IMG/VR virus record: IMGVR_UViG_3300035698_006573
Coordinates: 1-29,164 of that record
Strand: one strand, 5' to 3'
DNA from: a virus
DNA: 29,164 nucleotides
Below, piece after piece: positions 1 to 29,164 of the stretch. The notes beneath the pieces are model-generated. The model was not told the DNA's origin. It did not search any database and saw nothing but the letters and a program-made list of their open reading frames with translations. How positions within the stretch are numbered: position 1 is the first letter of the stretch; every line of letters starts with the position of its first letter. The position numbers and the translations under genes were made by a program.

Positions 1-127
1 AAATCCGTAATGTCTGCTTCAACGTGTGTATGTGAACTGCTTGCGTACATACCTGTTATAGGTATATCATTTGCACCACTTCCACCAATTTTTGCCAAAC
101 CAAGTGCTTGGAATGTTGATGCTGAAA
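1..127. repeat. Terminal direct repeat, left copy
   Basis: Bases 1-127 are identical to 29038-29164. The repeat lies inside one tail-fibre reading frame that continues smoothly across the join, so this is the overlap of a closed assembly rather than a biological long terminal repeat. A length of exactly 127 matches a commonly used assembler k-mer. The unit genome is therefore about 29,037 bp, circular or circularly permuted. Confidence 0.95.
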
Positions 128-416
128 CTGTCGCACCATGTAGAGCGTTTAACTCTTCTGATGTAATATCGCAATTAACTGAATCATTAATCTTAGGTGT
201 TGTAAGTCTCTTATTAGTCATAGTCTGTGTATCAGTCGTACCAACAATGGTACCAGTAGGTAATACTTTACCCTCTAACATATAGCCTTTAACTTCGCCT
301 AATTCAGCCTTAAAGCTCGCACTATTTGTATCGTATTGATTGTCAATTGCAACTCACTGGTCAGTATCGTACATACTTCCAGATACTAATGAACTTGTCA
401 CTTCATGTATTTGCAT
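1..416 (-). CDS. Tail fibre / baseplate appendage protein (N-terminal part, cut by window edge)
   Basis: ATG at 416-414 follows an AAGGAG ribosome site. The frame runs to base 1 and continues at 29037 down to 28887, giving 188 residues in the closed genome. The segment around residues 66-90 (TMTNKRLTTPKIND, then ITSEELNALHGA) is the repeat style typical of phage tail-fibre and tail-spike proteins, where TNKRLT..KIN precedes a beta-rich or helical stalk. One in-frame TGA (near residue 21, DQWVA) is read as Trp. It comes directly after the hub-type tail genes and before five further adhesin-like genes, so it is probably a fibre subunit or adaptor at the tail tip. The repeat style is seen in the sequence; the exact role is inferred. 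Confidence 0.75.
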
Positions 417-431
417 TATTTTCTCCTTTTA

Positions 432-986
432 TTAGAATATTTGAACTTCAATGACATTCCCATTCTCATCAGTCCAATCTACAGCACCTACGCCTTCTTC
501 AAACTTCGCTGTTTGCGTAACTGAATATGATAAGTTTGCTGGAATTCAATCCATTAAGCTTCTTTTTTCAAATTTCAAATCTATTGTTTGGAATATATCC
601 AATAAATTACCGTCTCTAATCTGAACATCACTTGTGATAATCATATCATTATAACTTCTTTGATTAGGAACTAAACTGCCACTATCAGGCACATATTTTG
701 GGAATATTGTTAAATCATTTTCTCTCATAGTACTTAGTATAGACATTAAGTTTTGTATTTGAACATAATCATATTCATTAACATTTAATAAACTTATATC
801 TGCTGTTACCTTATACCCTAAGAACTTACTTATATTTTTATTCTTTCAGTTAGTTGCTTTTTGCCATACTGGAGCATAATTAAAATTACCAACTCCTGAT
901 GTTAATAAACAATTTACAATTGGGTTGCCTGTAGCATATAATAATACACCACCAAATCCCCATACTGATTCATAATTATTACTCAT
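432..986 (-). CDS. Tail protein of unknown function
   Basis: A 184-residue protein with ATG at 986-984, overlapping the end of the upstream hub gene by 8 bases (ATGAGTAA). Two in-frame TGAs are needed (around KATNWKN and LMDWIP). The protein is rich in aromatic and polar residues with a beta-strand-like pattern; I see no signal peptide, membrane segment or catalytic motif. It lies between the large hub-like tail gene and the first fibre gene, the usual place for a small baseplate or tail-tip component. I do not recognise the family, so 'tail protein' rests on position only. Confidence 0.65.
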
Positions 987-2694
987 CTAGTTTCTCCCAT
1001 GCAGAAATCTTATAACTAAAATACTCATTTGTATCAGTTGCTAATATTGTCCTGCTTAATTTATTTACTACGTAGTGTGTGCCATTAACTACTATACGTT
1101 GTCCTAACTCAATGTTATAATTCTGTGCTAATAATTCAAACTGAATAGTTTTCAGACCTATTAACTTCTTGTAATATCTACCAAATAACTCTGATAACAT
1201 TGCTTTCTGCCAATCATCTAAATCTAATATTCCAAATACACTGGTTAAATCTTGTTTCGTATATCTAAAGTTTCCTTCTGAATACCCTTTGAGTATATCG
1301 TCTTCATTGATAGCCAATGCCTTCTGTGAGCCTAAATACCTCTTTTGGTGTATATTGAGATACCCACCAGTAAATAAGTTTTGGCACCTAACATACATTG
1401 CTAAATCTTTTACTATCATTGCTAATTTAATAATATCGCCTGTCTTTACATTTGCTGTTGCATCTTCTTCATCTAACATCTTAAACTTAAATGAATTGAA
1501 CTCTAAATCATCGCCATTTATTTTTATTGAATTGTAAGGGCTATTACAATAATATATTAAGCTACCAAACGCTGGGATGAATAATGGGTATGTTGTAATA
1601 TTAGAAGTTGGAGCACCTATTTCTGGTCATGTTGCTGTTTTCCCTGTAGTTAATGCTCATTCACTTCCTACAATATCATGCTCAAAGAATGTTTCCCATC
1701 CTGTGTATGTGAATAGAGCTTCTAATGGTGTCTGTCCGCCACCTACAAACTCAAATTCTCCTGGTAAAGGAAAGTCGCTGTTAATGTATTCAGGATATGT
1801 CCCTTCATACCATCAGTCTCTATAAACTTCTATTGCATTGAAATCATTTATATCAAATATTGATAATACTCTTATACTTGCGTGAGTAATATTATCTGCT
1901 GGATATCCAGTCTGACCGTATAATACGGTTGGTGTCCATACTCCATTTATTAAAGGTGCATCTCAACATCTTCATAAAAATAATCTCAATTGCCCTTCAT
2001 CACTTAAACCAAACTTAATAATCTTACGTGCTTCTGTAACTTGGGCTCAATCAACACATGCTTGGTTTGTGTTAATATTTACAGCCCATTGTGTTCATGG
2101 TAAGCTCTGAATAGTTTCAGTGCCTTCCATTATAGATATGCTATAACTTAAATCTGCATTGTATAAGTCACCAACATTTTGAGCGTTAATTGTTATTGAT
2201 GAATCTATTAATGTTTTCTCCAATGCGGTTGCGAATATTTCTGCTATTGGATAAAACTCATTTGCATTAACTTCAATTTCTCTGCTTAACATATCATTCA
2301 TAATGGTAAGTAAATCATATAAAACAAACTCAACCGTTGATATATCATTACCACCAGCATCTTGCTCGTACATCTTTTTAATACTACTATTTCTTAAATA
2401 CCCTTCAAATCTACAATCAGTCCCGTCGCCCATACATAGCTTAAATCTGAACTTTGCGTAATCTCTTACCTTCAAATCCCAGTCAAACATACCTGTGCTA
2501 TATGACATTACATTGTCTTCAAACCAAGCATAATTACGTATTTTAACCTTGAGTGTTCTACCTTTTGACTTAAAGTAATCAATTGCTGTAAAAGATTCAT
2601 CAGATAGTTTCCATGACATTAAATCGTCTAATGGCACTACTGATAACTGTACATCAGTACCATATTGGTCATATATTCTTAAATAAACATCCAT
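979..2694 (-). CDS. Tail tip / hub-like protein (distal tail or tail-associated protein)
   Basis: A 571-residue protein once seven in-frame TGA codons are read as Trp. Under the standard code it falls into two fragments with a gap. ATG at 2694-2692 overlaps the tape-measure stop (TAATG). The start (MDVYLRIYDQYGTDVQL) and a C-terminal part rich in beta strands (IVVNGTHYVVNKLSRTI) resemble tail-hub proteins, which follow the tape measure in siphovirus genomes and begin the tail tip. The central part (around residues 200-400) is unusually Trp-rich, with DWWY, TGW and TWP clusters, a pattern seen in carbohydrate-binding surfaces. No peptidase or muramidase motif is visible, in keeping with a host that may lack peptidoglycan. 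The functional call comes mainly from gene order. Confidence 0.7.
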
Positions 2695-4553
2695 TAAAAT
2701 TCTGCTCCTACTGCAATTTTCCCTCTGTTATATCCATCATAAAATGTTTCATCATCTACTTGGCTCATTAACAATTCACCATCTACTGTTACAAAGTTAG
2801 TTCTGTTAATTATTCTAATGCCATTATCAGGTCCATATTTATTAGGACTACTTGTAGGTGTTATACTAACACGTTCTTTACCACCTGGATTATCACCAAC
2901 TAACATCATTTGAGGTCCGTTCGTTACAAAATCACCACCAGTAGCAAAACTTGGTATAGCACTTAATGCTTTATCCATAACTCCTGATACAACTGCTCCT
3001 GCTCCTGCGGCTGCGATTAAGTTAAATGGGAATGGTACTGTTTTTAATATTGATGCTAAATATCCAGCAACTGCTTCCATAGTTTCTGCTCTAACTACAG
3101 ACTTCATTGAATCCATAGCAGATTGTCCAGATAATGCGGCACTCTTTAAGTCTGTTATAAGTTGAGCTTCTTTTCTTGATTTGCCTTCATCATCTAATTT
3201 CTTTTTAGTATTCGCTAACCATAAGTCTATCTCATGTTGGGCTACACCCGCTTCTCTATATTGTTCAACTTGTCTATCTAATAATGCTTGTTCTCTGTCT
3301 GCTGTCGCCAAAGATGACTCTCATAATAGGTCGTCAAACTCTGACCTTAAATCCATTTGTCTATTTATATTGTATATTAAATTCTTTGTTTCAGGGTTAT
3401 CACCTGGGTCAGTGACATCCATTGTTTGGTTCTCTGGTGCTTCACCAAAGTCTATATCTATTGCCTTTACGGTGTCGTCTAACAACACTAATCCTGCTAT
3501 TGTTGCTTCAACACTACTATCGATACTACTTAAATAATTACCATACCCTTCATAGAAATCTTCAACTTCTGGTTCAAGACCATTAATACTTGCAATAACT
3601 TCATATAATTTTATTAATGCTCCAGTTGCTCCTGTTGCTGGCGCCATAAATAGGTCTACTAAATCTTTATGTTTTGTATATAAGTTAATTAATGTTACTA
3701 ATCCACCAGCCATCTTACCAACTGCTGTGCCTAACAATATAAAGTTATTAGTCATTTGAGCAATATCTTCAGGGTTCATCTTGTCTAATTCAGCGGTGAA
3801 AGCCTCTGTAAATGCTCCCATTCCTTCAGTAACACTACCAGCAATCTCTTGAATCATTGGCTCAATACCTGCGGCTATTGTTTTACGTAAATCATCAAAT
3901 GTTGCCGCCATCTTTTCTGTATTTAATGCTGATGCTTCTGCTGTGCCCTTAAATTGACTTTCAAGTTCTTCTAATATAATAACTTGGGCACTCATTATGT
4001 CGCCTGACTCTTGTAATACTCTAATTTGGTCTTTTTGTTGTTGAGTAAATGTAACACCAACTCTTGTAAGTGCAGTAATTCCAACGATAGGGTCATTAAG
4101 TGCTTTAGAAAGAGAAAGTGTATTACCTGTTAATTCACCTTGTACCGCACTCATATCTATGATAGCCTGCGTTGCTCTTGGGAATATATCCTCACCAATA
4201 TTCTTAAATGTGGCAATCATTGCTTGTGACTGCATAATAAGAGTATTACTTACACCAGTTGCATCCTGAATAGCGTTTGCGTGTTCTGCCATTTGAGTTG
4301 CACTTATGCCGGCTGCGTTTCCAGTTGCCTTAATAACTGCTTCTAACTTTAAGAACTGTTTATTATCTTCACGTAATAGTTTGGCACTACCAGCCATGAA
4401 CTGAATTGCTTTCGTTGCAACTGCGGCAACTGCGGCAATACCAATAATGTTCTTTGCCATAGACGCAAAGTTTTTATCCAGTTTGTCAACTTGGCGATTT
4501 GCTTTCTTATCTCCCTGGACAATTATCTGAGTCACTAATTTTTCTACTGCCAT
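2694..4553 (-). CDS. Tail tape measure protein
   Basis: A 619-residue protein; one TGA (around residue 411, LLWESS) joins two fragments. ATG at 4553 overlaps the stop of the frameshifted chaperone (TAATG). It is helical and Ala/Gln-rich with short hydrophobic segments (near residue 40 and around the FPFNLIAAAGAGAVV stretch). Near the C-terminus it has FATGGDFVTNGPQMMLVGD, the characteristic end of many siphovirus tape measures. It sets tail length and passes into the cell membrane during injection. At about 0.15 nm per residue it predicts a tail near 90 nm, at the short end for siphoviruses. The position after the G/GT chaperones and before the hub is diagnostic. No lysozyme or peptidase domain is visible inside it. 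Confidence 0.9.
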
Positions 4554-5229
4554 TATCTTTTCTCCATCGCTTTCTTTTGTAGTCTAACTATTTCGCTCCG
4601 AGCAACATTGTAGAGCTGATTGAAAAATGCTGGTTGTTCCCACCATGAACCCTCATTTGGATACTCTTCTCGATAAGCAAATTCTATCACTATTCTATTT
4701 ATATTTCATATGAATGGCATGTCTCTTTTATCACATCTATCGTAATATTCACACCCTTCGCAGAAATACAAAACTTTATTACAATTGCTACAACTATCTC
4801 TCTCACATTTCTGACAATCAGCCTGTGCTACCTGTTCAGGTATGTTGTTTCATCTGATTGCCTTTATTAGTTTTTTTCAGCTTCATCCAACATTTGCTTG
4901 GACTCATGTTTCCTTATTTCTATACTGATATGAGAAGATACTTTAACATCTAAATCACCGAATGATTCTTCTGTAATTGGCATTATATTGCCCTTATCAT
5001 CTTCTAATGTCCATGAATCTATAGCCAATATTGCTGTTATAGCCGCATCTCTAAAACTATCATATTCGGTTACTAACTTACCATCTTCTAACTTTTGGTC
5101 TGTCTTACACCTTCTTAAAACTTCGTGAAACTCTTTTGCTGATAGGCTATGACACTCACAAATGTCCTCACCTCTATACTCTATTGTATAGTTAAAATCT
5201 GGTTGATACTTTACAAAACAATTCTTCAT
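4553..5229 (-). CDS. Tail assembly chaperone GT-type fusion, made by -1 frameshift
   Basis: The upstream 120-residue frame (5229-4870) ends GAA AAA AAC TAA. A -1 slip at the A AAA AAC heptamer (4876-4870) enters an open frame that runs to TAA at 4555-4553 and adds about 105 residues. The fusion is about 225 residues, like lambda gpGT, whose T part recruits tube subunits to the tape measure. The -1 frame needs two TGA=Trp codons (IRWNN, FIWNI). The T part carries a dense cysteine cluster (C-x2-C, then further Cys pairs, then CEGC and CDK), seven Cys in about 33 residues, which looks like a metal-binding knuckle and is unusual for T domains. It ends in TAATG coupled to the tape measure. The slip site and frame are seen directly; frameshifting in vivo is inferred from the family. 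Confidence 0.78.
4867..5229 (-). CDS. Tail assembly chaperone G-type (unshifted product)
   Basis: A 120-residue protein from ATG at 5229-5227, chosen because GAGGAAAT lies just upstream. A longer reading from 5265 starts inside the spacer hairpin region and lacks a ribosome site. It is mixed charged and helical (ECHSLSAKEFHEVLRR, DAAITAILAIDSW), as for G-type chaperones that coat the tape measure before tube assembly, and lies between the tail tube and tape-measure genes as expected. It ends in TAA directly inside the slippery site. No TGA codon is present in this frame. Confidence 0.75.
   Translation of the reverse strand: MKNCFVKYQPDFNYTIEYRGEDICECHSLSAKEFHEVLRRCKTDQKLEDGKLVTEYDSFRDAAITAILAIDSWTLEDDKGNIMPITEESFGDLDVKVSSHISIEIRKHESKQMLDEAEKN
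4870..4876 (-). promoter_or_regulatory. Programmed -1 frameshift site (A AAA AAC)
   Basis: The minus strand reads GAA AAA AAC TAA in the zero frame, so the heptamer A AAA AAC has the canonical X XXY YYZ form and is followed immediately by the zero-frame stop. The -1 frame is open from here to 4553. Tail chaperone genes of most siphoviruses use this arrangement. I see no strong downstream stem within 10 bases; the adjacent stop codon may be enough to promote slipping. Confidence 0.8.
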
Positions 5230-5253
5230 ATTTCCTCTCTTTGTTTTTGTGTT

Positions 5254-5281
5254 TTGCAGGCCCAACTTAATGAACCTGCAA
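5254..5281 (-). terminator. Hairpin between tail tube and chaperone genes
   Basis: TTGCAGG (5254-5260) pairs with CCTGCAA (5275-5281), a 7-bp stem with a 14-base loop, just after the tail-tube stop. There is no clear T run on the minus strand, so it may be a weak attenuator or an mRNA-stabilising 3' hairpin rather than a strong terminator. It would help keep tail tube mRNA in excess over downstream messages. Confidence 0.45.
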
Positions 5282-5294
5282 TTAATTTATCTTA

Positions 5295-6221
5295 CTAACT
5301 GGTTGTTATAGTTAATCCTTCAATAGAACTATCACAATCATTAAGCACTTCTACTACAGCATTTGATACAAACACACCTACATCTGGGTCAGGTAATGAA
5401 TACTCTGTATACTTACCATTCACTGCTATAGTGAATGTACCAGAAGTTGATACTAAACCTATTGTGTTATCTGATAATGATGCTGAAACCAAGTGGTCGT
5501 ACACTTCGTCGTCGTTGTCTTTATCATAATTCCAACTAAAGTTGAAAGTACCATCTATGTTTGTTAATATTTCAAGGTTCTTAGTATCACTATTTTGGTA
5601 AATTTGCTCATCACCTTGGAAACCATTAGTAAGTCCCAAATCGAAACTATTGATTGCTGTAATATTACTATCCAACATATCAGCGGTAACATTTGCGAAT
5701 AAGAATGGGTCCATATCAGGTGTACATGAACTTAATGTAAGTCCTGTTATACTACCAGATGCGGCTTCCTTAGTTAAAGTTTTACCTCTTAATGATAAAC
5801 TATATTGAACAACTTCTCCTGAATTACCAGTTATGTTCAAACTATCTGCTGTACAACCTGCTACATAATCTAATTTACTATCATCAGTATATACTCTATA
5901 AACTGTATAACTATATGCGGCTGGCTGGCTATTAACTATTGTTCTTGGTGAAGTCAAATCAAACATAGCCATGTCTAATACAACACTATGCGAAGGACTA
6001 AAGTTACCATTCATTGCAACTGTAGCAACGCTTATACCTTCTTGCGTCTCATATTTTTGTTTCTTTAATGTCCCAGTCTTTGCTGAAACATCTATTGTGC
6101 TAACTACTTTTGCGAATTCAATCGTGTCAGGCAACTCAGTAAAGGAACCACTTGCTGGCTCACCATAAGTTGTTTCTGGAGCGATTAGTACTCTGTAGTT
6201 TTTTCCAATTCTTGTACTCAT
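5295..6221 (-). CDS. Major tail tube protein
   Basis: A 308-residue protein (ATG at 6221-6219 with AAGGAG upstream). The start MSTRIGKNYRVLIAPETTYG resembles tail tube proteins of the type with a V.I..E.TYG opening. A long Ser/Thr/Asn beta-rich core follows, and the last quarter (from about residue 225, FNFSWNYDKD, then GTFTIAVNGKYTEYSL) could be a second beta-sandwich decorating the tube. It contains a single Trp, encoded TGG, and no in-frame TGA, as in the capsid gene. It precedes the chaperone pair and is followed by a hairpin, consistent with a highly expressed structural gene. Function is inferred from order and composition. Confidence 0.75.
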   Translation of the reverse strand: MSTRIGKNYRVLIAPETTYGEPASGSFTELPDTIEFAKVVSTIDVSAKTGTLKKQKYETQEGISVATVAMNGNFSPSHSVVLDMAMFDLTSPRTIVNSQPAAYSYTVYRVYTDDSKLDYVAGCTADSLNITGNSGEVVQYSLSLRGKTLTKEAASGSITGLTLSSCTPDMDPFLFANVTADMLDSNITAINSFDLGLTNGFQGDEQIYQNSDTKNLEILTNIDGTFNFSWNYDKDNDDEVYDHLVSASLSDNTIGLVSTSGTFTIAVNGKYTEYSLPDPDVGVFVSNAVVEVLNDCDSSIEGLTITTS

Positions 6222-6240
6222 TTCTTATCTCCTTTTTTTA

Positions 6241-6684: not shown

Positions 6685-6685
6685 A

Positions 6686-7108: not shown

Positions 7109-7109
7109 A

Positions 7110-7562
7110 TTACCTTATCAGTTGAATTGGTCTAACATATGGAGAATATAAATCAACCTTGCTATCAAGGTTAGTATCATAATTAATTGTTTCTAAATCT
7201 TGTTGAAACTTTAAGTCATACTTTCCCCAATATATTTTTGACTTCTGCCCATATAGAGTTTCATAATCACCACGTGATAAGTCTTCATATATCAATGCCA
7301 ATGTAAGATAATCTGATGAAACGCCCATGCATGTAGGGTTAGCAATAATGTCTAAAAGTATTTCTCCTTCAGATTCATCAACTCTAGCACCTTGTCTCTT
7401 AAGATAAAATTGTAATTGGTCTCCAAGTAATTCTTTGGCTGCGTCTATCTTACCATTCCAATTTGCATCTTCATCTGCCAATTCATTTACGTCAGACTCT
7501 CACCTTTCAATCGTATTCAGTGTTGATAATGAACTACTCGCCCATATATTTGTTGTACTCAT
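7110..7562 (-). CDS. Head-tail connector (adaptor) protein
   Basis: A 150-residue protein. The ATG start at 7562-7560 is reached only if the TGA at residue 21 (IERWES) is read as Trp. It is mostly helical (KIDAAKELLGDQLQFYLKRQG, then LLDIIANPTCMGVSSDYLTLALIYEDLSRG), similar to gp6/gp15-type adaptors that form a ring under the portal. It follows the capsid gene after a short gap holding a hairpin. TAA at 7112-7110 is separated by one base from the next ATG. Confidence 0.62.
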
Positions 7563-7581
7563 ATTTAATCTCCAAAATTAA

Positions 7582-7603: not shown

Positions 7604-7621
7604 CGTTATTTAATCTGCTTA

Positions 7622-8515
7622 CTATGCAGAAGTTTGTGTTAATATTCCTACTGATGCACTTGCGTAAAGTTGGTCAGTATTGAAATAACCATTAGCTACG
7701 ATAGTAGTTAACGCACCGCTCGCATTACGTTCTGTTTCACCTACGATGAATGAACCATTATTTCCTAAATCTTTATACGCAACACCTTGCGCATTCTTAC
7801 CGAACATAAGCCCGATAGAGCCTGAAATCAATGCTGTATTTTCAGTGATTTGGTCACTCCAATAAACATTAACTCCTGCTAAAGTTCCAACAAATCCGTT
7901 GTTAGCCAAGTTTGCACCTGGGTCTGCTAAAGTTCCAACTGCACTTGTTCCAGCTTGAACTATTTCTGAACTTAAACCGTAAGGACCCCAAATTTGTTTT
8001 GGGCTAAGAACTGCGCTAAACGGTCCCATAATTCCTTCTGTATGTAACTTCTCAATAGCCTCGAACCAAACGCCCATTGTTAATGCGCCTGAACCGCTAC
8101 TAATTTGATGTACTAAACTTGAACTCATATCTGCGTAAACAGCATTGTCAAATTTTGCACTAATTGCATTTCCTAAAATGTCGCCTGTATTGCCATAGAT
8201 GTTGTCATCATTTCCCTGGATTCCAAGGTCAGTTAAATCTGCTCTCACAGAATAACGTAAAACTTCTATATCCACGGGCGATGTTGCAATATCAGTTGCG
8301 CTGGTGTCAGCACCTTCTGCTCCTGCCGCATTCGCTGTAACGTCTGAAGCAGTTATCTTAGTGTACACTGGAAAACGACCATAAATCGCTCCACCTTGTA
8401 CTGCTTTCTTGTCTATTAAAGGCCAGAAAACGTTAATTTTATTAAAGTGTATAATTGCGTCAGCTATGGCATAGCCTAAGCCTCCAGTTGCTACATTTGT
8501 ATCGGTAATTCCCAT
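7622..8515 (-). CDS. Major capsid protein (HK97-fold)
   Basis: A 297-residue protein, ATG at 8515-8513, AAGGAG upstream, stop TAG. The N-terminal part (AIADAIIHFNKINVFWPLIDK, RFPVYTKI) and the middle stretch EVLRYSVRADLTDLGIQ, followed by a long helix (ILGNAISAKFDNAVYADM), are typical of HK97-like capsid proteins, with an extended loop and then the spine helix. ALSPKQIWGP and the VYWSDQI strand are P-domain-like features. It lies after the scaffold, as expected. All four Trp codons are TGG and none are TGA, unlike most genes here. Upstream of the start a TATAAAATA stretch near 8530 could be a phage promoter. Length is normal for the family. Confidence 0.85.
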   Translation of the reverse strand: MGITDTNVATGGLGYAIADAIIHFNKINVFWPLIDKKAVQGGAIYGRFPVYTKITASDVTANAAGAEGADTSATDIATSPVDIEVLRYSVRADLTDLGIQGNDDNIYGNTGDILGNAISAKFDNAVYADMSSSLVHQISSGSGALTMGVWFEAIEKLHTEGIMGPFSAVLSPKQIWGPYGLSSEIVQAGTSAVGTLADPGANLANNGFVGTLAGVNVYWSDQITENTALISGSIGLMFGKNAQGVAYKDLGNNGSFIVGETERNASGALTTIVANGYFNTDQLYASASVGILTQTSA

Positions 8516-8565
8516 TTTTAAATCTCCTTTTATTTTATAGTCTTATAGACTGTTTATTCTTGTTT

Positions 8566-10150: not shown

Positions 10151-11563
10151 CTACACCTCTGGAGGTGCCAATATTGTCTCTAATGTGCTTACTTGGGCAC
10201 TCGTTAATCTTTTATGTTCTTGAAACTTCTTCAACTTCTCAATGGCATCCTCTTCTGTAATATCAGGGTCTTTTTTCATTAAGATTTCAACATTACTTGT
10301 TAAGCCAGCGGCTAACAATATTGTATTAAGCCTTGCTTCTTCTTCTGGAGAACTATCAAAAACTATCTCTGCATAATTCAATATAATTTCTGTATCTTCA
10401 GGGAATGTCTTCGCTGTATTATTCAAACTCCAAGTAACCATCATTAATTCTAATAAGTCTCTAATTGGCATAATGTAATATTGTCTGTCTGATTTAACAC
10501 GCTTCAATAACGTCTCATTCGACAGCTTTAATTGATAACCTGAGTTAAGTGTCGTGTTATCTTTTTTATACGCTTGTGCTGAAAGTCCAGCCGCTTGAGC
10601 CGCATCTACTTTCTTATTTGCTATCGCAGTTTCATACTCTGATAACTTTGGAGAAGGGTTAATGTAATCTGCTGTAGGTTGTACATCACTTGTTGGGTCT
10701 GCTTTCATTGCTAACAATGACTGAGGACCCCACTCTATTGACTTTAATGTTTTGTCGTCCATGCCAACAATTACAAGGGTCGAATATGCTTGGAATGAGT
10801 ACATCATCGATAAGTTAGTCTGGTCTATATTAATCCATTCATTTGCAGGAACCAATGGGTTCTTCTTTTCGGGCCAGAAGTTGTTTATCTGTAAATCATT
10901 TGTAAATCATACTACTGGAATAACTTTATATGGGTTATCTACTATATCTTTTTCGCTTATTATCTTGCCATTCGCAATATCAACATTAACAATACTTTGC
11001 GTCTCATCTGTCCATCTAATGTATTGGTCTAATCTATGCTCTGCTTTTGAAGATGGCGTTTGCTCCACCCCTGAGATGTGAACAAACAAATCAGTTATCT
11101 TTGTTGGATTTTTAGGGTCTTGGTATGCAAAACACTTATCGCCAGTTATGATGTCTAATTCTACTTTATCATCTCTTCAAACTGGCATCACGCCAACCTT
11201 GTAAGTCAAATTAACAAAGTGGTTTACCTTATCTAATGTTGCATGAAACATGCTATCAGTTAGCATTGTTGTAAATTCATCTTCTAAATTTTCCTTATCA
11301 ATATCTACAAGCATTGGGTTTTGGAATAAAATCGATGTATCGTCAATAACTCTCTGGGTTAATGGATATGTTGACGCATATCTTGCCACCTTTGTATGTG
11401 TTGTTGGGTAAATTGTTTGTAGTAATGAGGATAAATAATAATCCTGATTGTTCTCATAGTAGTCAATGTCCTTCAATACGCTACGTCTACGCTTCAAATC
11501 TTCTTGTCATATTGAAGTCTTCTTTTGTTCAACTATTAAGTTGCTTAATGATATATTAAACAT
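10151..11563 (-). CDS. Portal protein
   Basis: A 470-residue protein from ATG 11563-11561 (TAGGAG upstream) to TAG. Three in-frame TGAs (near residues 19, 129 and 216) split it into four pieces under the standard code. The N-terminal part (TYPLTQRVIDDTSILFQNP), the central clip/wing part (PVVWFTND, PANEWINIDQTNLSMMYSFQAY) and the long stem helices with LLELMMVTWSL followed by FPEDTEIILNYAEIVF are typical of SPP1 gp6-like portals. It forms the dodecameric ring for DNA entry. It follows the large terminase subunit by 16 bases and precedes the head morphogenesis genes, the standard order. Confidence 0.85.
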
Positions 11564-11579: not shown

Positions 11580-12857
11580 TTATGCACCAATTACACGTCC
11601 AGGTGTTCTTACTGTGATTGGATAAAGTCTTTCAACTAAATAACCAAAACTATCTGTGATATGGACCCATGGTTTCCCTGGCATCTCTCTTTTCTTATCA
11701 ATTCTTCCGTCGTCTGTCCTTGCTGATAATCTTATATCTTTAATAAGATATGGACACCCACTCTTTAATATTCTTACTCTTCTGTGAGACAGTGCGGCAT
11801 TCACCGTGTTCAATCTATCCCTTTGAGTTGATATTTTATTACCATCTATTCTGAAATAGTATGGCGCTTCTCTTAATATCTTTATGTCTGACACTCCTAA
11901 TGGAGCATTCGTACTTCTTTTCTTTAATGAAGTCAAATCAGGGAATACAGTTATATCTCTTTTCCCGTATTTATTAACTATCACTTTCGCCATCTCTTCT
12001 GTATTACTATTAGGTAATATTATCTCTTCAAATAAGAATAAATTACCATCAATACCTATCTCGCCAACTACTGCTACCATTGGATTTACGTTAAAGTCCA
12101 TACCTATAAGTATGCTTCTTCCAATCTTGTTGTATCTGTCAATAGCAAGGCTGTCTTTTCAACTGTAATATGCAGGCATGCTGTTTATATCAACAAATCC
12201 GCCCTCAATATATTGCTCTGCTACCTGTTTATCAAACTGAGCATACAAATCATCTATATACTCCCTACCAGTAAATGGATTATCATAACTCGCCGCCTTA
12301 ATCAATTTACCAATTGGTGGCTTACCATTAATGCCCTCTATAAATAATTCATACGTATAGAGATAACCTTCTGGCGTCGTAACTATAGCACCAGTTCCAT
12401 CAGGTACCGCTCTAATACGTGCGATACACTCTCTTCAGACAAGGGTTTGGGAGTTGTAACTACTAAGAGAATCGAACTCATCTATTATGAAATCAGTTAC
12501 GGTTAAACCCTTTATAAGTCTGTAGTTCTGTGCTGTTCTAAACATAATCAACCCAGACAATCCTGGGGACTTCACTTCTATTTCAGCATTACTTAAATGC
12601 TCTGTATATTCTATTCCATAGCCGTCAAATAAAGAACGGAATAGGGGCCAAAGAATATCTTGACTCATTCTATATGTTGGACTAAGGACTAATATTTTAC
12701 CTTTGCCCTTACGTCTTTTAATTAAATTTAATACTCTTAATGGTATTGCATACGACTTGCCACTGCCGAACCCTCCCACAAGTGCTGTATAACGTGTATC
12801 ACTAACTGCGAACTCTATCTGGTGCTTTAATGCTCCAATAATTGCTCTTACGGCCAT
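11580..12857 (-). CDS. terL: Terminase large subunit
   Basis: A 425-residue protein joined across two TGA codons (residues 141 and near 225). Walker A GGFGSGKS lies at residues 28-35, with the ATPase coupling region behind it, and Walker B FIIDEFD at 123-129. The nuclease domain shows GMDFN (Asp 254), VFPD (Asp 307) and HITDSFGYL (Asp 402), the three acidic positions of the RNaseH-like terminase nuclease. It packages DNA into the procapsid and cuts the concatemer. ATG at 12857 overlaps the stop of the small subunit (TAATG). Length is normal. No intein or insertion is visible. Confidence 0.93.
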
Positions 12858-15340: not shown

Positions 15341-15673
15341 TTATTTAACTAATTCCATTAAATCTTTCAATTCTAAACAAGCATATGTTTTAGAGTGGTT
15401 GCGTTTAAATATAAGTAGTGGCGTATGTTTACCTGAGTTTTCTTTTGCTTGTTTTAATGATTGTCACACGTTAATTTTTTCTTGATTTTTGCACTCTATT
15501 GAAAATGGGAAGTACTTTCTTGCTTTTGGTGATAATAACACATCTTCTCCACCTGCACCCATTGAGGTTGAGCGTACATCGTCTTCTTCTAAATCTTTAA
15601 AATTTTCTAAGATTAAATCACGAACTGCTTGTTGGAGTCGCCTACCTTTTGACTTACAACTTTGACTTTTCAC
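15341..15673 (-). CDS. PD-(D/E)XK endonuclease (resolvase-like)
   Basis: A 110-residue protein starting at GTG 15673 (AAGGAGTGAACA upstream). Residues 8-16 (SKGRRLQQA), RSTSMGAGGEDVLLSPKAR and FPFSIECKNQEKINVW carry Asp 44 and the E-x-K pair Glu 60/Lys 62 of the PD-(D/E)XK fold. This arrangement is common in phages as a small nuclease, probably a Holliday-junction or branched-DNA resolvase used in recombination and packaging. Trp 70 in the conserved NVW is encoded by TGA, one of the best proofs of the recoding. The C-terminal strand (TPLLIFKRNHSKTYACLEL) completes the fold. Confidence 0.82.
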
Positions 15674-16316: not shown

Positions 16317-16835
16317 TTACTCTCCAATTCCCTTTAATGCTGTTTGGTATGCTTCTGCCGCTTTAAGTTCATCTGTGAAATGTCCTAAGTGTTTAAGTTT
16401 ACCATCGATGAATATACTTGCTTTTCATTTGTCTAATCCAGTAAACTTAAAGACGCCTGTATATTCAGATGTACTTTTTTGCGTCTTCTGGTACTTTACA
16501 CAATTCACTCTGTTTGTTACTAAGTGTAAGTTATCGATTCTATTGTTTGATTTGCCACTAATATGGTCAACTTGTAATTTCATACCGTTTCTTGCTCTAT
16601 TACCAAAATGGTCTCAGACTAGGTGATGAACTCTAAATCCTTTTGCCTTTCCTTCTTTGGATAATCTGACAAACAGATAACCATTACCATTGTCATTAAG
16701 ATTTAATTCTCGTTCTCTGACGCTCATAAGACAGGTCCCATTTTGAACCTGTCTCTTTACAGACCTAACTTTTCCAAAATTGCTAATCTGATAATAGCCT
16801 TCGTAAAATATTATGTCTTTCCAAAGTTCTTGCAT
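16317..16835 (-). CDS. HNH homing endonuclease (NUMOD4-HNH-AP2)
   Basis: A 172-residue protein, ATG at 16835 overlapping the upstream stop (TAATG). Residues 3-45 are a NUMOD4 module (LWKDIIFYEGYYQISNFGKV). The HNH core VHHLVWDHFGN..., KLQVDHISG and N-x2-NLHLVT lies at about residues 68-110, and an AP2-like DNA-binding repeat (YTGVFKF ... KWKASIFIDGKLKHLGHFTDE) follows. Two in-frame TGAs fall exactly at family Trp positions (LVW and KW). It is a paralogue of the plus-strand gene at 20372. It is a selfish DNA element with no obvious role in virion production. Confidence 0.88.
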
Positions 16836-17178: not shown

Positions 17179-18012
17179 TTATTTTGTTTTTGTTCTAATT
17201 CAATTTTCTAATGAATAGTTTTCATTAATATACTCTACTATACCAGCACCTAAGTAATCGTCTGGGCATACTATAATCTTATCCTCATGTCTATTCAAGA
17301 ATGCGGCCCACCAACTATAACTACTATTGGCTATAATATTATGGTCACATAAACTCATCACCGCCATATCAACGAAATCGTTACCTGTTTCAACGAATAT
17401 AACTCTATCACTTTCTTCGTCTCAAATGTTTGCTTTAAACCAATTTCTATCTTGTGTACATATTAAAAATACATAGTCGTCAACATCGTCTTTACTGAAG
17501 AAGTTTTCTGTTAATGCATTGTGATAGTAATTTCTATTTAGATTTAATGATGCTACCTGAACGTAATCACCTCTTCTGTTATGAATGCTCACTAATTTCT
17601 TTTCTTTACTCAGGTTCAATGATTTGATGTATTCATTTGCTTTTTCTAATACGTCTTGCTTATACTTAAAAGTTTCATATACATAATCTCTAATGTTATC
17701 TCAGTAAGTGTGAATATGAAACATTGAATGAAATATATAATTCTTATTTTTATCTAAATTAAAAACTGCTTCATCTAGTGGTATTCTACCGTTAATCTTT
17801 TTCATTTCTCATTCGAAGTCATTCTTATCAATTCACTTAATATCTAAATCTAATACTTTATCAAACTTATTACCTCACTTACCAGCAACGCCCATTAACA
17901 TGACCGCTTCCATACCTGTCTTCTCTGCTATTCCTAACAATGAGGCGTACTGTTGTATTTGTGAGCAAGTATCTCCTATTGATGGAAAGTTATTTAATGT
18001 TATATACCCCAT
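17179..18012 (-). CDS. GT11-family glycosyltransferase (alpha-1,2-fucosyltransferase-like)
   Basis: A 277-residue protein, ATG 18012-18010 overlapping the upstream stop (TAATG), with six in-frame TGAs. Residues 143-150 read IHNRRGDY, the H-x-R-x-GDY donor-binding motif of GT11 fucosyltransferases. About residues 225-247 give MSLCDHNIIANSSYSWWAAF, another GT11 hallmark. The N-terminal QIQQYASLLGIAEKTG fits the helix after the first motif, although the usual G-x-GNQ-F sequence is degenerate (SIGDTCSQ). It would transfer fucose or a similar sugar from a GDP-sugar. Targets could be host surface glycans (blocking superinfection) or the phage's own Ser/Thr-rich fibres. No signal peptide or membrane segment, so it is cytoplasmic. 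Confidence 0.82.
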
Positions 18013-20371: not shown

Positions 20372-20929
20372 ATGAAAGAAGAATGGAAACAGATTGAAGG
20401 GTTTGAAGGTATGTACGAAATTAGCAATATTGGTAGGGTTAAGAGTTTAAGTAGGAATGTTATAAATGGAATTGGTTGCTTTAGAACAGTTAAAGAAAGG
20501 ATATTAAAGCAAAACACAAGTACTTCTGGGTATTTATATGTAAGTTTGTGTAAAGAAGGTAAAAGAAAATTACACAGAATTCATCATTTAATATGAGACA
20601 ATTTTGGTGATAAACCTAGGAATGGTAGGAAACTTCAGGTTGACCACAAAAACGAAATCAAAACTGATAACAGAATTGGCAATCTTCAGTTATTAACAAA
20701 TCGTCAAAATACTACAAAAAGCACGTTATTATTGAAAACTTCAAGCAAATATACGGGAGTTTGTTGGAACAAACAAACAAAAAAGTGGGTTGCAGTTATT
20801 GGTATTAACAGAAAACCCAAACACTTAGGTTATTTTACAGATGAACTTAAAGCATCTGAAGCATATCAGAAAGCACTTAAAGAGCATTTAGATACAAAAA
20901 TAACCCAAAAAGGTATTAGTATAATATAA
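20372..20929 (+). CDS. HNH homing endonuclease (NUMOD4-HNH-AP2), plus strand
   Basis: A 185-residue protein, ATG at 20372, stop TAA; a TGA at residue 75 joins two fragments. A NUMOD4 module (EEWKQIEGFEGMYEISNIGRV) spans residues 3-50. The HNH core IHHLIWDNFGD, LQVDHKNEI and GNLQLLTNRQN follows at about 70-115, and an AP2-like repeat (YTGVCWNKQTKKWVAVIGIN, KHLGYFTDE) at 125-165. Compared with its minus-strand paralogue (16317), the LVW Trp is again TGA but the KW Trp is TGG, which shows both codons serve the same residue. It ends in a tandem two-way terminator. Confidence 0.88.
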
Positions 20930-22069: not shown

Positions 22070-22903
22070 TTAAAGGTTTGTGTTACCTTGTATTTTTGAG
22101 TTGCCACCTATATATGCGTATGAAAGTACATCAAATGTGCCATCTACTATAAATGTAGCAATACTATAATCGCCATCTATTGTTATTGTGTTCCCTACAC
22201 CTGTTATAATAGCATTAAAGTCTGTTGTTAGATAGCGAATAATAACTACGCCATCTTTACCATTGTGTGGGTTGAAATAATCACCTCAACCACCACCACC
22301 AGCATTACCAGCACCAAGCCCATTTGTTCCATTAGTTAGTGAAGGATTACCTGGAGTACCTGCACCACCAGCATAGTATGTTGCAGTTCCTGATATAGAA
22401 CTTTGCAATCCATCGCCACCATTACCACCATATACTCTTTCATTTGGTACAAAATAATAAGGTGCCGTGCCAACTGCGCCAGCGCCACCACCGCCTCCGC
22501 CAAAACTTTGATTAAATTTTGCATTCTGAATATGAACACCGTTGCCGCCATTATTTCCTTGTGACGGGTCTGTTTCGGGAGTATTTCCAGCACCACCAGG
22601 ATAAACATCAGTCCCGCCGCCACCAGAGCCACCTGCTAATATTGCAACTTCGTCTTTACCACCGCCACCAGAACCTCCGGCAGAAGTTATTGTATCAAAA
22701 ACAGAATCTCCACCAGAATTACCAGCACCAAAAGTTGTTGTACCACCAGAGCCAATAGTTACAGAGTATGTTTGTGAATGTACGGTTAGATTATCAAAAT
22801 GACGATAACCGCCTGAGCCACCTCCACCACAACCAACTTGGTTTGTTGAGTCATATCCGCCACCGCCGCCGCCTGCTATTACTAATAATTCTACATTTCC
22901 CAT
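22070..22903 (-). CDS. Glycine-rich tail tip adhesin, copy 2
   Basis: A 277-residue protein, joined over one TGA (GGGGWGDY). The first 205 residues are about one third Gly in runs (GGGGGG, GGAGT, GGNGGDG), the pattern of polyglycine-helix adhesins such as T4-type gp38 tip proteins. The end (LTTDFNAIITGVGNTITIDG then GDYSIATFIVDGTFDV) is a beta module shared with the 27310 gene, so the two are paralogues. The poly-Gly loops between helices usually carry receptor specificity. Located next to the long collagen-like fibre, it may cap that fibre. Confidence 0.72.
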
Positions 22904-22918
22904 ATTATTTCACTCACA

Positions 22919-25900
22919 TTATGCCTCAAATGTTTCTGCTAATACATTACTTGGGTTAAATTGAACTGAACTCGTTGAATAAGCGATACCTAACATATTA
23001 AGTTGGTCACCTGAACCAGTTGTAGGTAATTGCGTCATTGAGCCAGAGTTGTATGAACCTGATGCCTTTGCTAAATATACAGCACTGCCTATATTCCAAT
23101 CCCAACTTTCATCACGTGCGTATCCACTTCTTAATACTATTGGATTGCCTTCTGCACTTGATTCAGATACAATCATTCCAAATGCTAATGAACTCACTGA
23201 AGCCGTTGCGTCTGCATCTCATAATTTTCCATCTGATTTCATATATACTATATTACCAAATACAACATCTTCTCCTGCTAATATATCACTTGTTATTAAT
23301 CCTGAATAAGTTAAATCAGATGCTAATGCCGAGTCTTCATCAAGGCTGCCAGAAGCACTGCCTCCGCTTCCTCCACCTGAAGTTCCAGATGTTCCTGAAG
23401 TACCATCTTCACCTGAAGTGCCTGATGTTCCAGTGCCACTTGTACCAGAACTACCTGATGTTCCTGCATCTCCAGTTGCTCCACTTGTGCCAGAACTACC
23501 ACTTGTTCCTGACGAACCTGAGGCACCTGTATCACCTGTATCACCTGTTGCACCACTCGTTCCAGAGCTTCCAGAAGTTCCTGCTACTCCAGATGTTCCT
23601 GAAGAACCACTTGTTCCTGCATCTCCAGATGTTCCACTTGAACCTGACGTTCCATCAGCTCCTGAAGTACCAGAAGTTCCTGAAGTTCCACTTGCTCCTG
23701 AAGTTGTAAATTCTAACGCTGTTGCACCTGAGTTAACAACAACAAATTTATCACCTTGGTCTGTAAATGCATTCGGCGTATCTGTCAATCCTAAGAATGT
23801 TGTTACTCCAGTACCACCAGCACCACCACCAGCTGATATATTAGGTATAGCACCTCTTAAATCTTCTGTAGCATATAATGACCAATCACCTGATGCATTT
23901 ACAATTGTAAATCTTGCAATTAAGAACCCAGTGCCTTGGAATGGTCTTGGTATATTATACACTGAATAATTAAATGCGTCTGACGTAGCATCTGATGGAC
24001 TGTTTTTTGAATAAGTTCCAATAGGTAAATTACACATTAAATGTGATTCTTCGCCAGTCTTATTTGCAATTCCCCATACAACTATACTAAATGATGTATT
24101 ATTAAGTGTGTCTCCTACAGCGTCGTCTGTTAATGTTAATAAATCTGTCACAGAAAGATATGGTGTTGTATTATGATTAACTATATGTGCATCGACATCA
24201 GGCATTGATTGTGAAACAAATATTTGCTCATGCATTTGATATACTATACCACCAGTTGTTTGTATATAAGCGTTTGTTGGTAATCCAGTAAGCGAACCTT
24301 CTATACCTGAATCTCATTGAGCTTCAAACTTTCTTAATTTTTCTGTTATGTGTGTTAAATGACCTTGTTTATCTGACCATCCAGCTAAATGGTCATTGAT
24401 ATTACGATTACCTAAAGCACCATCTGCCGCTGTTGCTGTTGCAGATTGTAATACTACATTAGCAATTTTAATATATTCTTCTGATGGATAACCACCAGTA
24501 TCAACGGTCAAAACAGGATTACTTATAGGAATGTATATAAAATTCTCTTGTGGTGAAGTATCTAATCCAGCAGTTAATGTTATCTTTAAGTCAGATACAT
24601 CAAGTATTTGCCTACCAGTTGAAAATCTCATAGTTAAATAATCAAATCCAGCTGGATTTGTTAAACTACCTGTAATATCTGTTCCATCACTTGTAATTCT
24701 AAAGTCAAATGATTCTCTTATTATACCATTGAAGAAGTTTGTTGTTGTATCGTCTGGGTTAGCACTTGGGTCAATGTTTATTTTACCTGTTGTTTCATTA
24801 ATTTCTAATACGGTTCCAACGAATGCTGAATAATAAGGAAATATTGGCTCTACATTTGTTAATGAGCCAGATTCTGTTCCTGAAAGATATAGTGCGTCTC
24901 CCATATTCCAATCCGATGTATCCATACCATATACTTTACCAACGTGAGTTGCAACACCTGAACCACTATCTAATACTTCGTGTGTAGCAATCATAATATT
25001 ACGACCAAAGTTAGCATCTCTATCAGCAATTGGTAATATTGGTGTTAATAATGTTCTTCCTGAAATTGGGTCAACTGCCGCACCACCAACACTTAAAATT
25101 GTACCAATTGTTATTGTATTACCTGTATTATTATAATATTCAATTTGTCCATCTCTACCAAGGTGTATTGCATGACCTAATCCATTATCAAGATATAATG
25201 AATAATCTGCTTCATCCCAACGTACTTGTGCCGTTCCTGATGCAATTGCAAAGTTTATAGTATCTAACTCATTAATATCTTCTACAGATAGTGAGCCAGA
25301 TATAACAGCAGAACCACTAATATCTAATTTTTCAGAAGGTGTTTCTGTTCCAATACCAACATTAGTTCCCATAAAGTATGTGTCGCCACTTGATGTAACT
25401 TCTAAATAACCGTCTACTATTATTCCATCTGTTCCAGATTGAGAAACTATACTATCAACTAATGTGTTTGAAGACCCTACTGGTATGTAATTGTCTGTCA
25501 AAGTTACCGTTACGCTCGTTCCTGATGTTCCTGCTGTACCGCTTGTTCCAGAAGACCCAGAACTGCCAGACGAACCACTTGTGCCTGAACTACCATCTAT
25601 TCCAGATGTTCCCGAAGTACCACTTGAACCTGATTCTCCTGAAGTACCTGAAGTACCTGAAGTACCATCAATGCCACTTGTTCCAGATGAGCCAGCGTCT
25701 CCCGTATCACCTTTAACTCCAGATGTTCCACTTGTTCCGTCTACACCGCTTGTTCCAGAAGTACCGTCAACACCCGAAGTTCCTGATGAACCACTTGTAC
25801 CAGAGCCCGAAGTTCCACTTGTGCCGTCTGTTCCACTTATACCCGATGTCCCTGATGAGCCACTTGTGCCTGAACTACCATCTGTACCTGCTACACCACT

Positions 25901-26131
25901 CGTTCCACTTGTTCCGCTTGTTCCAGAAGTATTACTACCACCAGCATTTTCGGCATAAGATGCTGTTACGGCATAGTCAGCATAACTCGCACTCTCTATA
26001 GAACCACTTACCGTTATTACAACAGGGTTTCCTAATCCATCTAATATTTCATTATTGCTTCCACTCACTTGTAGTAATCTGTAGAAACTTGAGCTAATGT
26101 GTAAGTTTGTTAAATTCTTTTCGTATGCCAT
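22919..26131 (-). CDS. Long collagen-like tail fibre
   Basis: The largest gene: 1,070 residues, two in-frame TGAs (near residues 606 and 972), ATG 26131 with AGGAG, stop TAA. Two blocks of Gly-X-Y triplets (about residues 66-207 and 810-928), mainly GTS, GSS, GAD and GVD with a GVKGDTGDAG stretch, form collagen-like triple-helix stalks without proline. Between them lies a beta-rich domain with GNVGIGT and SEKLDISGSAVIS repeats (from about residue 245), the usual fibre shaft layout, and the C-terminal region (AFGMIVSESSAEG, DWNIGSAVYLA) matches a similar segment in the middle (near residues 400-425). The protein is most likely a trimeric fibre that reaches the host receptor. Confidence 0.82.
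23350..23705 (-). repeat. Collagen-like Gly-X-Y repeat block 2
   Basis: About 120 residues of near-continuous GTS/GSS/GAS/GAD/GDT triplets in the long fibre, encoded by 9-base units of variable third bases. On the plus strand the same DNA gives a long open frame of P-x-V repeats, which is only a shadow. Confidence 0.9.
25512..25935 (-). repeat. Collagen-like Gly-X-Y repeat block 1
   Basis: About 140 residues of GTS/GSS/GVD/GVK triplets near the N-terminus of the long fibre. Codon third positions vary between units, so the block was kept by selection for protein rather than by recent slippage. The repeats could still recombine with block 2, which would change fibre length. Confidence 0.9.
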
Positions 26132-26164
26132 TTTATTTTCTCCTAAATATATTTCTTTTAATCA

Positions 26165-27298
26165 TTATATCCCATATAATGAAGTAATTTTTGTTGTTGA
26201 AACTCCGTATATACTATCAATATCACCTATTAAAGGTCCTGGTGCAGTTTCTTCTGTACCATATGTTAAGAGTTTGTCAGTAATTGCATTGTAAGTTCCA
26301 ATTCCTCAAGCAACAGAACGAACTACGCTACTTAAACGAGCCTCGCCCAAAGCACAGTCATCATAATTTACTGTCGTTGTGTCTGCACCCATACGGAACA
26401 ATTGTGTCGTGTATTCTGGATGGTCGTCAAGGTGATTTGTAAATGTGAAATCACCAGTAGGGCTTGAAGCGCCATTTTTGTAGACTTTAACGCTTGGATA
26501 ATCTGCTACAATTGTATATAAATCATTATTAGTTACTGCCGCATAAGTTGAAATTGCGTTTATGTCGCCGATATAAGATTGAACGTTAAGGTTACTATCT
26601 CTAAAATAAAATCCGAATGGTGGGTATACATTTGCCGCAAGGTTTCTGGCATAAATATTACCCCTTGTCATAGTACCCTTGTTGGGCATTAAAAGACTAA
26701 GAGTAAATGTATCTGATGATGGCACGGTTCCTAAATTAATGTAGTCATCTACACCATCTGCCTTTTGCCCGTAGCCAAAAGCATATTTTGTTTCTGCTGG
26801 CTCACCGCCGCCCTTTTTAGCGCCATCTTGGTTGTTGGCAGTACTATCGTGTATAACTGTATTTGCTGGATAATCATTCATGTGATGAACCATATCAAAA
26901 TTGCTATCCCATACAGCATTACTTACCGCATCATCTGGGTCGTCACCTACATTCGGGTTGTCATCGCTTCCAGAATCGTAATAAATATAAACCGATTCAT
27001 CTGCATCAATTGTTCAACTTGCTGTAGATGCGTGAATAAGGGCATGGCTATCTGCAACCGTACCACTATCATAATCCCAAAAATCAACTTCGCATTTTAA
27101 TTCTGTTGGATTTGAACCAGATGTTGCAATTGCAAACTTTCTTGAATTTGTAGTTAATTCTTCAAAGACTTTTGTGCTATCACCATTTGAACCAGAAAGG
27201 TGAATTGCTATTGGGAAGTGAGTTACACTTCCACCGATACCACCTGTATAATCAATATCTAATTTTATTCTTTTGCTATATGTTCCATACCAAACCAT
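26165..27298 (-). CDS. DUF2341-LamG adhesin
   Basis: A 377-residue protein, ATG 27298-27296, two TGAs (residues 95 and 331), stop TAA. The N-terminal part (residues 1-110, WYGTYSKRIKLDIDYTGG, FPIAIHLSG, ELKCEVDFWDYDSG and VYIYYDSGS) is DUF2341. It continues into AVWDSNFDMVHHMNDYP and a LamG/concanavalin A-like domain (DGVDDYINLG, TFTLSLLM, KVYKNGA, LGEARLSSVVRS), which usually binds carbohydrate. The TGA-encoded Trp at residue 95 lies at the W..ID junction of the first domain. Such a pair is found in secreted and phage receptor-binding proteins. It probably recognises a host glycan or glycolipid, in keeping with a host that lacks a wall. Confidence 0.82.
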
Positions 27299-27309
27299 TT
27301 ATATTTCTC

Positions 27310-28179
27310 CTAACCTGCTAATGTTACTGGAATTTTATACATTTTTACAACACGACCTGTTGCTGGTGCACCGTCAATAACCGTGAATGTCCCATCTATA
27401 ATAAATTTCGCTACGCTATAATCACCATCTATTGTAATAGCGTTTCCTACACCGCTTACGGTATTTGTTCCAAAATCTGTTGTTAATCAGCGAGCAATGA
27501 ATATACCAGAACCACCTGCTCCACCTTGGGCTTTAGAACCATCATATGTTCCTCCACCACCTCCGCCACCCGTGTTTGGTGTACCGCTTTCGCCAGATGT
27601 TGCATTTCCATATACTGCTCTACCACCGCCACCTAAACCGCCAGATGCGTCGTTACTTACTCCATTTTCGTTTCCGCCACCGGCACCACCACAATAATAG
27701 GTATCGGCTCCAGAAAGAGAATATTCTAATCCGTCAGCGCCATTACCGCCTAACTGACTTCCACGAACATTTCCAAATTGACCTATAGCAGAGGCTCCGC
27801 CACCACCTCCACCTCCAAGGTTAGCACCATTTCCACCAGCATATCCTTGTCCGCTTGTTGGCGACCCACCTGTTCCGCTTACGCCGCCTTCAGAGCCACC
27901 ACCGCCACCAGAACCACCATCGTGACCGTCTGTTTGAGAGTTTCCTCCACCGCCACCGCCAACTGCCGTAAGTGTGCTAAATGTGCTATCATCTCCATCG
28001 GCACCATCAGCATTAACGGTTGGATTGAGTGGAGCACCATCTCCTATTACTACAGAATAAGCTTGTGCTGTAACAGCGAAACTTGCTGAATAAATAAGGC
28101 CGCCAGAGCCACCGCCGCCGCCGTTGTCAGAACCTCCAGCTCCACCTCCAGCAACTAATAATATTGCTAAACTTGCCAT
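27310..28179 (-). CDS. Glycine-rich tail tip adhesin, copy 1
   Basis: A 289-residue protein, ATG 28179, AGGAG upstream, stop TAG; one TGA (FIARW) at residue 231. It starts with SLAILLVAGGGAGGSD, continues with many GGGGGSGG runs and ends with LTTDFGTNTVSGVGNAITID and GDYSVAKFIIDGTFTVIDG, the same C-terminal module as the 22070 gene. Polyglycine sandwich domains of this kind form receptor-binding tips of tail fibres. The two copies flank the LamG and collagen-like genes. Confidence 0.72.
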
Positions 28180-28205
28180 TTATATTCTCCTAAAACTATA
28201 TTCCA

Positions 28206-28886
28206 TTATGTTATGTTCCATTGTGTAATAATTCCATTTAATATTATTACTGCGTGGTTGTTAGCATCTCCATCATTAAAATTAAAATCTTTATCTATAC
28301 CATCTACTCCACCTGCTGATGCATGACCACCACGAATTTTAGAGCCTGATATTGTTTTGGTTGTATAAATATTATCAACATATAAGTCTCCACTTGCACT
28401 TACAGAGCCTGATATTGACACTCTCATTCCACCTGCTATTGGCCCAAATGATGGGTAACCAAATCAGAAGTTCTTTTCTGCTCCCACTGGATTATAGAAG
28501 AAAGGCGCCTTGTCATATGTTGTATCAGAATACGAGCCATATACAAACGACCCTTGTTCAAATATTGAACCTCTTAACATTGCACTTGATGAATTAATAT
28601 TAACTCACTCACCTGCAAAGTCCCAATCAGAGCCACTATCAATATATTTATCTGAAACATCATCATAACTACTACTTTTTGCTTCAATTGCTTTTGATGT
28701 AGTGAATGCTTCTGATGCTGTAAGTTCTACCTTTAATTTGTCCTCACCTGTATCACTTACAGGGTCTGAAAATAGACCTGATATGGTAGTATTCTCACTA
28801 TCATAACTTCCTGTTCCAGTTAATAACTGAGGTAGAGTATGTGCATCACTACCAGTTGATTGAACTAATAGTTTAACTAAATCCAT
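28206..28886 (-). CDS. Tail fibre-related protein
   Basis: A 226-residue protein, ATG 28886 one base after the previous stop. Two TGAs (residues 94 and 128) join three pieces. It has Ser/Thr-rich beta strands and a MRVSISGSVSASGDLYVDNI segment that resembles the SGSAVISGSLSV shaft repeat of the long fibre, so a common fibre-shaft element is likely. The end (AVIILNGIITQWNIT) looks like a small cap. There is no enzyme motif. Confidence 0.65.
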
Positions 28887-29164
28887 TTATATCGCACTTC
28901 CACTTCAGTTGGCAGCTACTAACGCCGCAAAACGTGTTGAGTCATATAGTTTTCCAGTCATTGCTTTAATAACTACAACTGATGCCGCACTACCACTTGC
29001 TAACTCATTAATAAATGCTTCAGCAGTAAATGGAACTAAATCCGTAATGTCTGCTTCAACGTGTGTATGTGAACTGCTTGCGTACATACCTGTTATAGGT
29101 ATATCATTTGCACCACTTCCACCAATTTTTGCCAAACCAAGTGCTTGGAATGTTGATGCTGAAA
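28887..29164 (-). CDS. Tail fibre protein, C-terminal part (cut by window edge)
   Basis: The continuation of the frame from 416-1. In the closed genome the frame runs to TAA at 28889-28887. After the LAKIGGSGANDIPITGMYAS segment it has a helical stretch (VPFTAEAFINELAS, KAMTGKLYDSTRFAALVAANW) whose last Trp is TGA. The next gene starts at 28886. Confidence 0.75.
29038..29164. repeat. Terminal direct repeat, right copy
   Basis: Identical to bases 1-127; see the left copy. It shows the ends of the window overlap and the sequence is complete. Confidence 0.95.

Follow-up and report, generated by a model that had tools for sequence, protein, structure and literature searches.

A complete tailed-phage genome that reads TGA as tryptophan, and its standard-code sister group

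Reassigned genetic codes have been proposed as a shield of cells against viruses, and a recoding of late genes has been proposed for phages that carry suppressor tRNAs. Phages that read TGA as tryptophan (code 4) are already known; what the genome described here adds is a small code-4 lineage with a standard-code sister group. The described code-4 phages include the Mycoplasma phages P1 and MAV1 as well as gut phages, crAss-like and related, in some of which a suppressor tRNA, RF1 or TrpRS is encoded (PMC11210395, PMC10746230).

The window, that is, the whole stretch of 29,164 nucleotides that was analysed, a virus record of IMG/VR, closes into a circle of 29,037 bp with an exact 127-bp repeat of both ends (positions 1..29164, no strand assigned). 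A second contig, L174 (IMGVR 3300031227_000611), crosses the end junction by running through window positions 28691-29164 and then 1-17787 at 99.98% identity, and since it spans the window ends, the joint is genuine. Terminase, portal, capsid and tape measure genes are all present according to family searches, as in Caudoviricetes, and the window is the complete tailed-phage genome of an uncultured bacterial virus, with a GC content of 0.35. Neither window bases 1-25000, compared by megablast with phage and plasmid records, nor the portal, compared with 50,697 phage records, gave a match. No DNA polymerase, helicase, primase or lysis genes were recognised in this apparently complete genome.

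The late genes lie on the minus strand and comprise the terminase large subunit (11580..12857; phrog_2, E = 1.6e-34) with two in-frame TGA codons (W141 and W233), the portal protein (10151..11563; phrog_533, E = 5.1e-8) with three (W19, W129 and W219), the major capsid protein (7622..8515; phrog_544, E = 4.6e-4) with none and four TGG, a tail protein (5295..6221; phrog_290, E = 4.3e-12) with none, and the tail tape measure protein (2694..4553; phrog_27166, E = 9.1e-28) with one. The protein adjoining the tape measure gene (979..2694), which has no family match but a 32% match to the related contig L175, contains seven. The same strand carries a PD-(D/E)XK nuclease (15341..15673; PF24608, E = 2.6e-8) with one TGA at a tryptophan position, a NUMOD4-HNH endonuclease (16317..16835; PF07463, E = 3.1e-16; PF13392, E = 1.5e-5) with two and a family-11 glycosyltransferase (17179..18012; PF01531, E = 2.8e-20) with six, and a second HNH endonuclease with one TGA lies on the plus strand (20372..20929; phrog_99, E = 1.2e-34) and is 54% identical to the first. 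A presumed tail-fibre region on the minus strand (22070..29135), recognised in the translations by its Gly-rich and SGTSG-repeat proteins, contains nine TGA codons; positions 26165-27298 within it gave no phrog match. Positions 22919-26131 encode a protein of 1,070 residues with long SGTSG repeats, two TGA and seven TGG codons.

When TGA is taken as a stop (code 11), open frames of at least 100 codons cover 69% of the window, and when it is read through, the coverage rises to 93%, so that code-11 gene callers lose about a quarter of the coding sequence of this phage. The gene set contains 53 in-frame TGA and 80 TGG over 8,979 codons, three or four of these TGA being doubtful because they fall in doubtful N-termini or a doubtful open reading frame (codons 16 and 18 of 13745-14146; 19744-19938; codon 7 of 19895-20332), and the safe count is about 49-50 TGA in about 25-26 genes. 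All window genes are open under code 4. Of 41 open reading frames, 33 end with TAA, eight with TAG and none with TGA. A preliminary description of this DNA, made from the sequence alone, had counted about fifty in-frame TGA codons in some 27 genes and no gene ending in TGA, and both statements hold with this slight adjustment of the numbers. The homologous genes of 13 standard-code relatives have TGA at 28 of 78 ends (36%), and the chance of finding no TGA among 39-41 ends at that share is 1-3e-8. A small structural gene on the minus strand (7110..7562) ends with TAA, whereas in all nine standard-code relatives it stops with TGA, about one codon away from the place of that TAA. The C-termini of the window genes are level with the ends of their homologues, so TGA has no second role as a stop. 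The TGA share of tryptophan codons is 0.32, 0.49 and 0.41 in the individual modules, an even spread (p = 0.22), and the concentration of recoded codons in one module that would mark a phage-driven switch was not found.

To find the residue encoded by TGA, we masked TGA as X, made tblastn alignments of every gene with its homologues and scored the columns with our own BLOSUM62-based approximation of Codetta, not with Codetta itself. Tryptophan is the best residue over the 25 sites that can be scored directly, about half of the TGA sites having no informative homologue, with a ln-likelihood margin of 26.9 over Phe and 58.8 over Gly, and it is chosen in 499 of 500 bootstraps. The margins remain +17.5 over Phe and +41.2 over Gly without the two TGA-coded relatives. 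All ten control codons yield the expected residue when every homologue is used; when the TGA-coded kin are left out, nine still do, and CGA (five sites) is scored as Lys. The nearest homologue has tryptophan at 13 of the 25 sites. Portal W19 is tryptophan in 25 of 27 homologues, portal W219 in 19 of 33 and terminase W141 in 58 of 157, and terminase W233 is also TGA in the related contigs L175 and L002. The TGA codons of L002 and L003 (the latter being the same contig as L175) face TGG of the window eight times, TGA seven times and Phe codons seven times. The LVW/LIW sites of both HNH enzymes and the KW site are TGG-encoded tryptophan in L211, the KW site is so also in Polaribacter phage P12002L, and the NVW site of the PD-(D/E)XK nuclease is TGG in Synechococcus phage S-CREM2. 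Ala occupies the LVW site in the remaining three or four HNH homologues, so this site is weak when taken alone. The KW site of the second HNH endonuclease is itself TGG. The preliminary description had proposed TGA as tryptophan throughout the genome, had placed TGA at these family tryptophan positions with one KW of the HNH pair written TGA and the other TGG, and had suggested comparing TGA columns of the terminase, the HNH enzymes and others with homologues; that comparison favours tryptophan and bears out the proposal. A reading of TGA as glycine (code 25), as in an Absconditabacteria or Gracilibacteria host, or as another residue would be conceivable in that these bacteria have TGA-dense phages (PMC10746230), but the 58.8 ln units by which glycine falls below tryptophan, and its occurrence at none of the 25 nearest-homologue residues, make it almost certainly wrong, as the preliminary description had already argued for code 25. 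TGA is a sense codon for tryptophan in this genome and its use as a stop has been lost.

Viral contigs were scanned with the terminase, the portal and the capsid protein to collect relatives. L174, L175 (3300031227_002543) and L002 (3300035698_004185) have a gene order like that of the window, proteins 62-100% identical to those of the window and TGA as tryptophan. L174 is the same phage as the window, with three mismatches in 17,787 bases, but its tail-fibre region differs beyond window position 28691. There, L174 17661-19166 and window 26800-28691 part, and beyond the divergence only patches of 75-81% identity are seen, which looks as if members of one phage population had swapped a receptor-binding cassette. 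L175 and L002, both incomplete, stand as another species relative to the window phage, with proteins 62-75% identical to those of the window and portals nearly identical to each other; only two code-sharing species were found besides the window phage, and one sample number accounts for two of the three related contigs. TGA occurs 20 times in 3,722 aligned codons of L175 and eight times in 1,441 of L002. That the in-frame TGA codons are sequencing errors or the marks of pseudogenes or a decayed prophage is negligibly probable: the search brought no support for it, L174 repeats the sequence over 17.8 kb at near identity, the two diverged relatives show the same TGA pattern, and the frames are otherwise intact.

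The TGA-coded phages have standard-code kin (L005/L176, L151, L154, L155, L158, L161 and others) with syntenic terminase, portal, capsid and tail genes, the terminase and portal being 35-45% identical to those of the window. TGA is a stop in these kin, whereas it is tryptophan in the window, and across the 13 standard-code contigs that have late genes in common with the window (mean identity 31-41%), not one of 20,909 aligned codons is TGA. The portal tree, which has 19 standard-code rows, unites the three TGA-coded phages in a single clade (support 100/100). These sequence comparisons suggest that TGA went from stop to tryptophan inside a standard-code phage family, most simply by one change on the branch to the TGA-coded clade; the tree is unrooted, and the direction of change rests on the 19 standard-code against the three TGA-coded rows.

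No tRNA was found in the window by ARAGORN and a permissive Rfam scan (cmscan), nor by ARAGORN in its code-4 kin. The translations of the window and the family searches, which covered the small open reading frames in part, showed neither a release factor nor a TrpRS. The UCA tRNA, RF1 or TrpRS that a phage-driven switch would bring was not found in the window, and therefore the host must supply UGA decoding. The host most likely already reads UGA as tryptophan, which is also the best reading of the preliminary statement that the host has this code. The lineage would have passed from a standard-code host into one in which UGA had already been reassigned, its TGA stops would have been swapped for TAA or TAG, and its tryptophan codons would have drifted from TGG to TGA. 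Because the phage brings no tRNA, UGA would be decoded by the host tRNA-Trp, having either a UCA anticodon or a CCA anticodon with a 4-bp anticodon stem. A like reliance on host tRNAs has been proposed for phages of AGG-recoded Bacilli (PMC8629427).

The host might instead use the standard code, and UGA might be suppressed to tryptophan in the infected cell, a mechanism that has been put forward for some gut phages. Some code-4 phages encode a suppressor tRNA, RF1 and TrpRS (PMC10746230), and a UCA tRNA is present in 11 of 73 (PMC11210395); about 6.5% of standard-code genomes have no tRNA-Trp other than a tRNA-Trp(CCA) with a 4-bp stem, and such a tRNA, when engineered, reads UGA in Escherichia coli (PMC13092985). 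The lateral genes described below are common to phages of standard-code hosts. Nevertheless, a complete genome that brings none of these factors to light, and in which TGA occurs in accessory genes too with no split between modules, makes suppression quite improbable, and we retain a host that already reads UGA as tryptophan.

The majority of known bacteria with TGA as tryptophan are mollicutes (PMC8629427), and Mycoplasma or Spiroplasma is the host of 22 of the 27 code-4 phages in INPHARED (PMC11210395). The preliminary description named a mollicute or another code-4 lineage as the likely host. The second possibility is kept, but the first, taken as Mycoplasmatales or Entomoplasmatales, is now unlikely. 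Stretches of 15 kb were taken from 20 genomes of a Bacilli-side class, of which 19 are code 4 by ORF coverage. In these 19 genomes the TGA share of tryptophan codons is 0.77-1.00 and the GC content 0.24-0.32, against a TGA share of 0.40 in the window and 0.40-0.46 in its kin and the higher GC of the window. Mycoplasma phages P1 and MAV1 have TGA shares of 0.95 and 0.77 (Fisher p = 4e-11 and 9e-7 against the window). Host-like tryptophan codon usage and GC, by which a mollicute phage would be recognised, were not found. Codons ending in A make up 64-83% of the other codon families of the window, and a TGA share of 40%, below this range, would not obviously be expected from a long-settled code-4 host, which counts against the code-4 reading in general. 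No relative of the portal turned up in the 395 genomes searched, a sample of the class of a Bacilli bin in which 19 of 20 spot-checked genomes are code 4, and the lateral genes point elsewhere. The host is therefore probably no typical mycoplasma; the mollicute reading is weakened, not disproved, as phage codon usage can lag.

Window bases 1-20000 gave only short AT-rich matches, treated as chance, both to these 395 genomes and to 380 genomes of the phylum of a Peregrinibacteria bin, the best match over both sets being 59.9 bits at 76%, and the portal gave one weak match (E = 7e-8) among the 380. CRISPR matching, limited to the genome samples, gave chance-level matches. A terminase scan of the genome collection was rejected as a host link, its best matches being 35-37% in unrelated bins (Gammaproteobacteria, Bacteroidetes and Cloacimonadota). 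Other bacteria with TGA as tryptophan are the Patescibacteriota family JAKLIH01, Fastidiosibacteraceae XS4, a putative symbiont of a marine dinoflagellate, and Pinguicoccus, Zinderia, Stammera, Hodgkinia and Nasuia (PMC13092985, PMC12213064). We consider a code-4 bacterium outside the typical mollicutes the most likely host, and JAKLIH01 or protist endosymbionts such as XS4 are possible candidates.

The accessory genes have their own affinities. The nuclease at 15341-15673 is 67% identical to a gene of Synechococcus phage S-CREM2, which suggests a recent lateral transfer; at 65-67% to T4-like Synechococcus phage genes, it is far closer to a described phage than the other genes tested. The relatives of the glycosyltransferase are nearly all cyanophage genes, and the best match of the HNH enzyme is to a Polaribacter phage. 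By sequence similarity, these genes would point toward marine phages of cyanobacteria and Bacteroidota. A repeat of about 83 nt occurs in three copies on the minus strand (13686-15347) ahead of the accessory genes, each with a TTGACA-16-TATTAT arrangement facing the genes (hexamers at 14140-14113, 14573-14546 and 15337-15310), and these copies look like copied early promoters. The protein of 14576-15259 has an internal repeat of about 45 residues, is 34% identical to a gene of L002 at 4729-5346 and appears GIY-YIG-like by eye. The protein encoded at 18691-19476 is helical and weakly matches Microcystis phage Mel-JY01 (31%, E = 9e-10); one stretch of its sequence raises the suspicion that it may be a late sigma factor like T4 gp55. 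The predicted fold of 18691-19425 (pLDDT 41) is uninformative, and its PDB comparison gave no notable match.

Taken as a whole, the observations are best explained, and we hold this with considerable confidence, by a phage that uses code 4 in every module, whose lineage would have shifted to a code-4 host and would rely on the tRNA of that host, which is probably not a typical mollicute. The more specific reading, that the phage marks an aquatic non-mollicute bacterium with TGA as tryptophan, such as a JAKLIH01 relative or an XS4-like protist endosymbiont, and that a standard-code family got past the code barrier through the loss of its TGA stops and the use of the host tRNA, without code-switch genes, has about an even chance of being correct. 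Standard annotation of these samples would overlook the code-4 host to which the genome points. Since the code-4 clade and its standard-code sister phages are comparable gene by gene, the steps of the crossing, the loss of TGA stops and the gain of TGA sense codons, can be read from the comparison. The code-4 gut phages share TGA as tryptophan with the window, whereas the suppressor tRNA, RF1 or TrpRS of some of them has no counterpart found here, and the even spread of TGA sets the window apart from suppressor-tRNA phages, for which a recoding of late genes has been proposed. Mycoplasma phages P1 and MAV1 likewise share code 4 with the window phage, but TGA makes up 77-95% of their tryptophan codons, their GC content is 0.27-0.29 and their genomes are 11.7-15.6 kb long, in contrast to 40%, 0.35 and 29,037 bp in the window phage.
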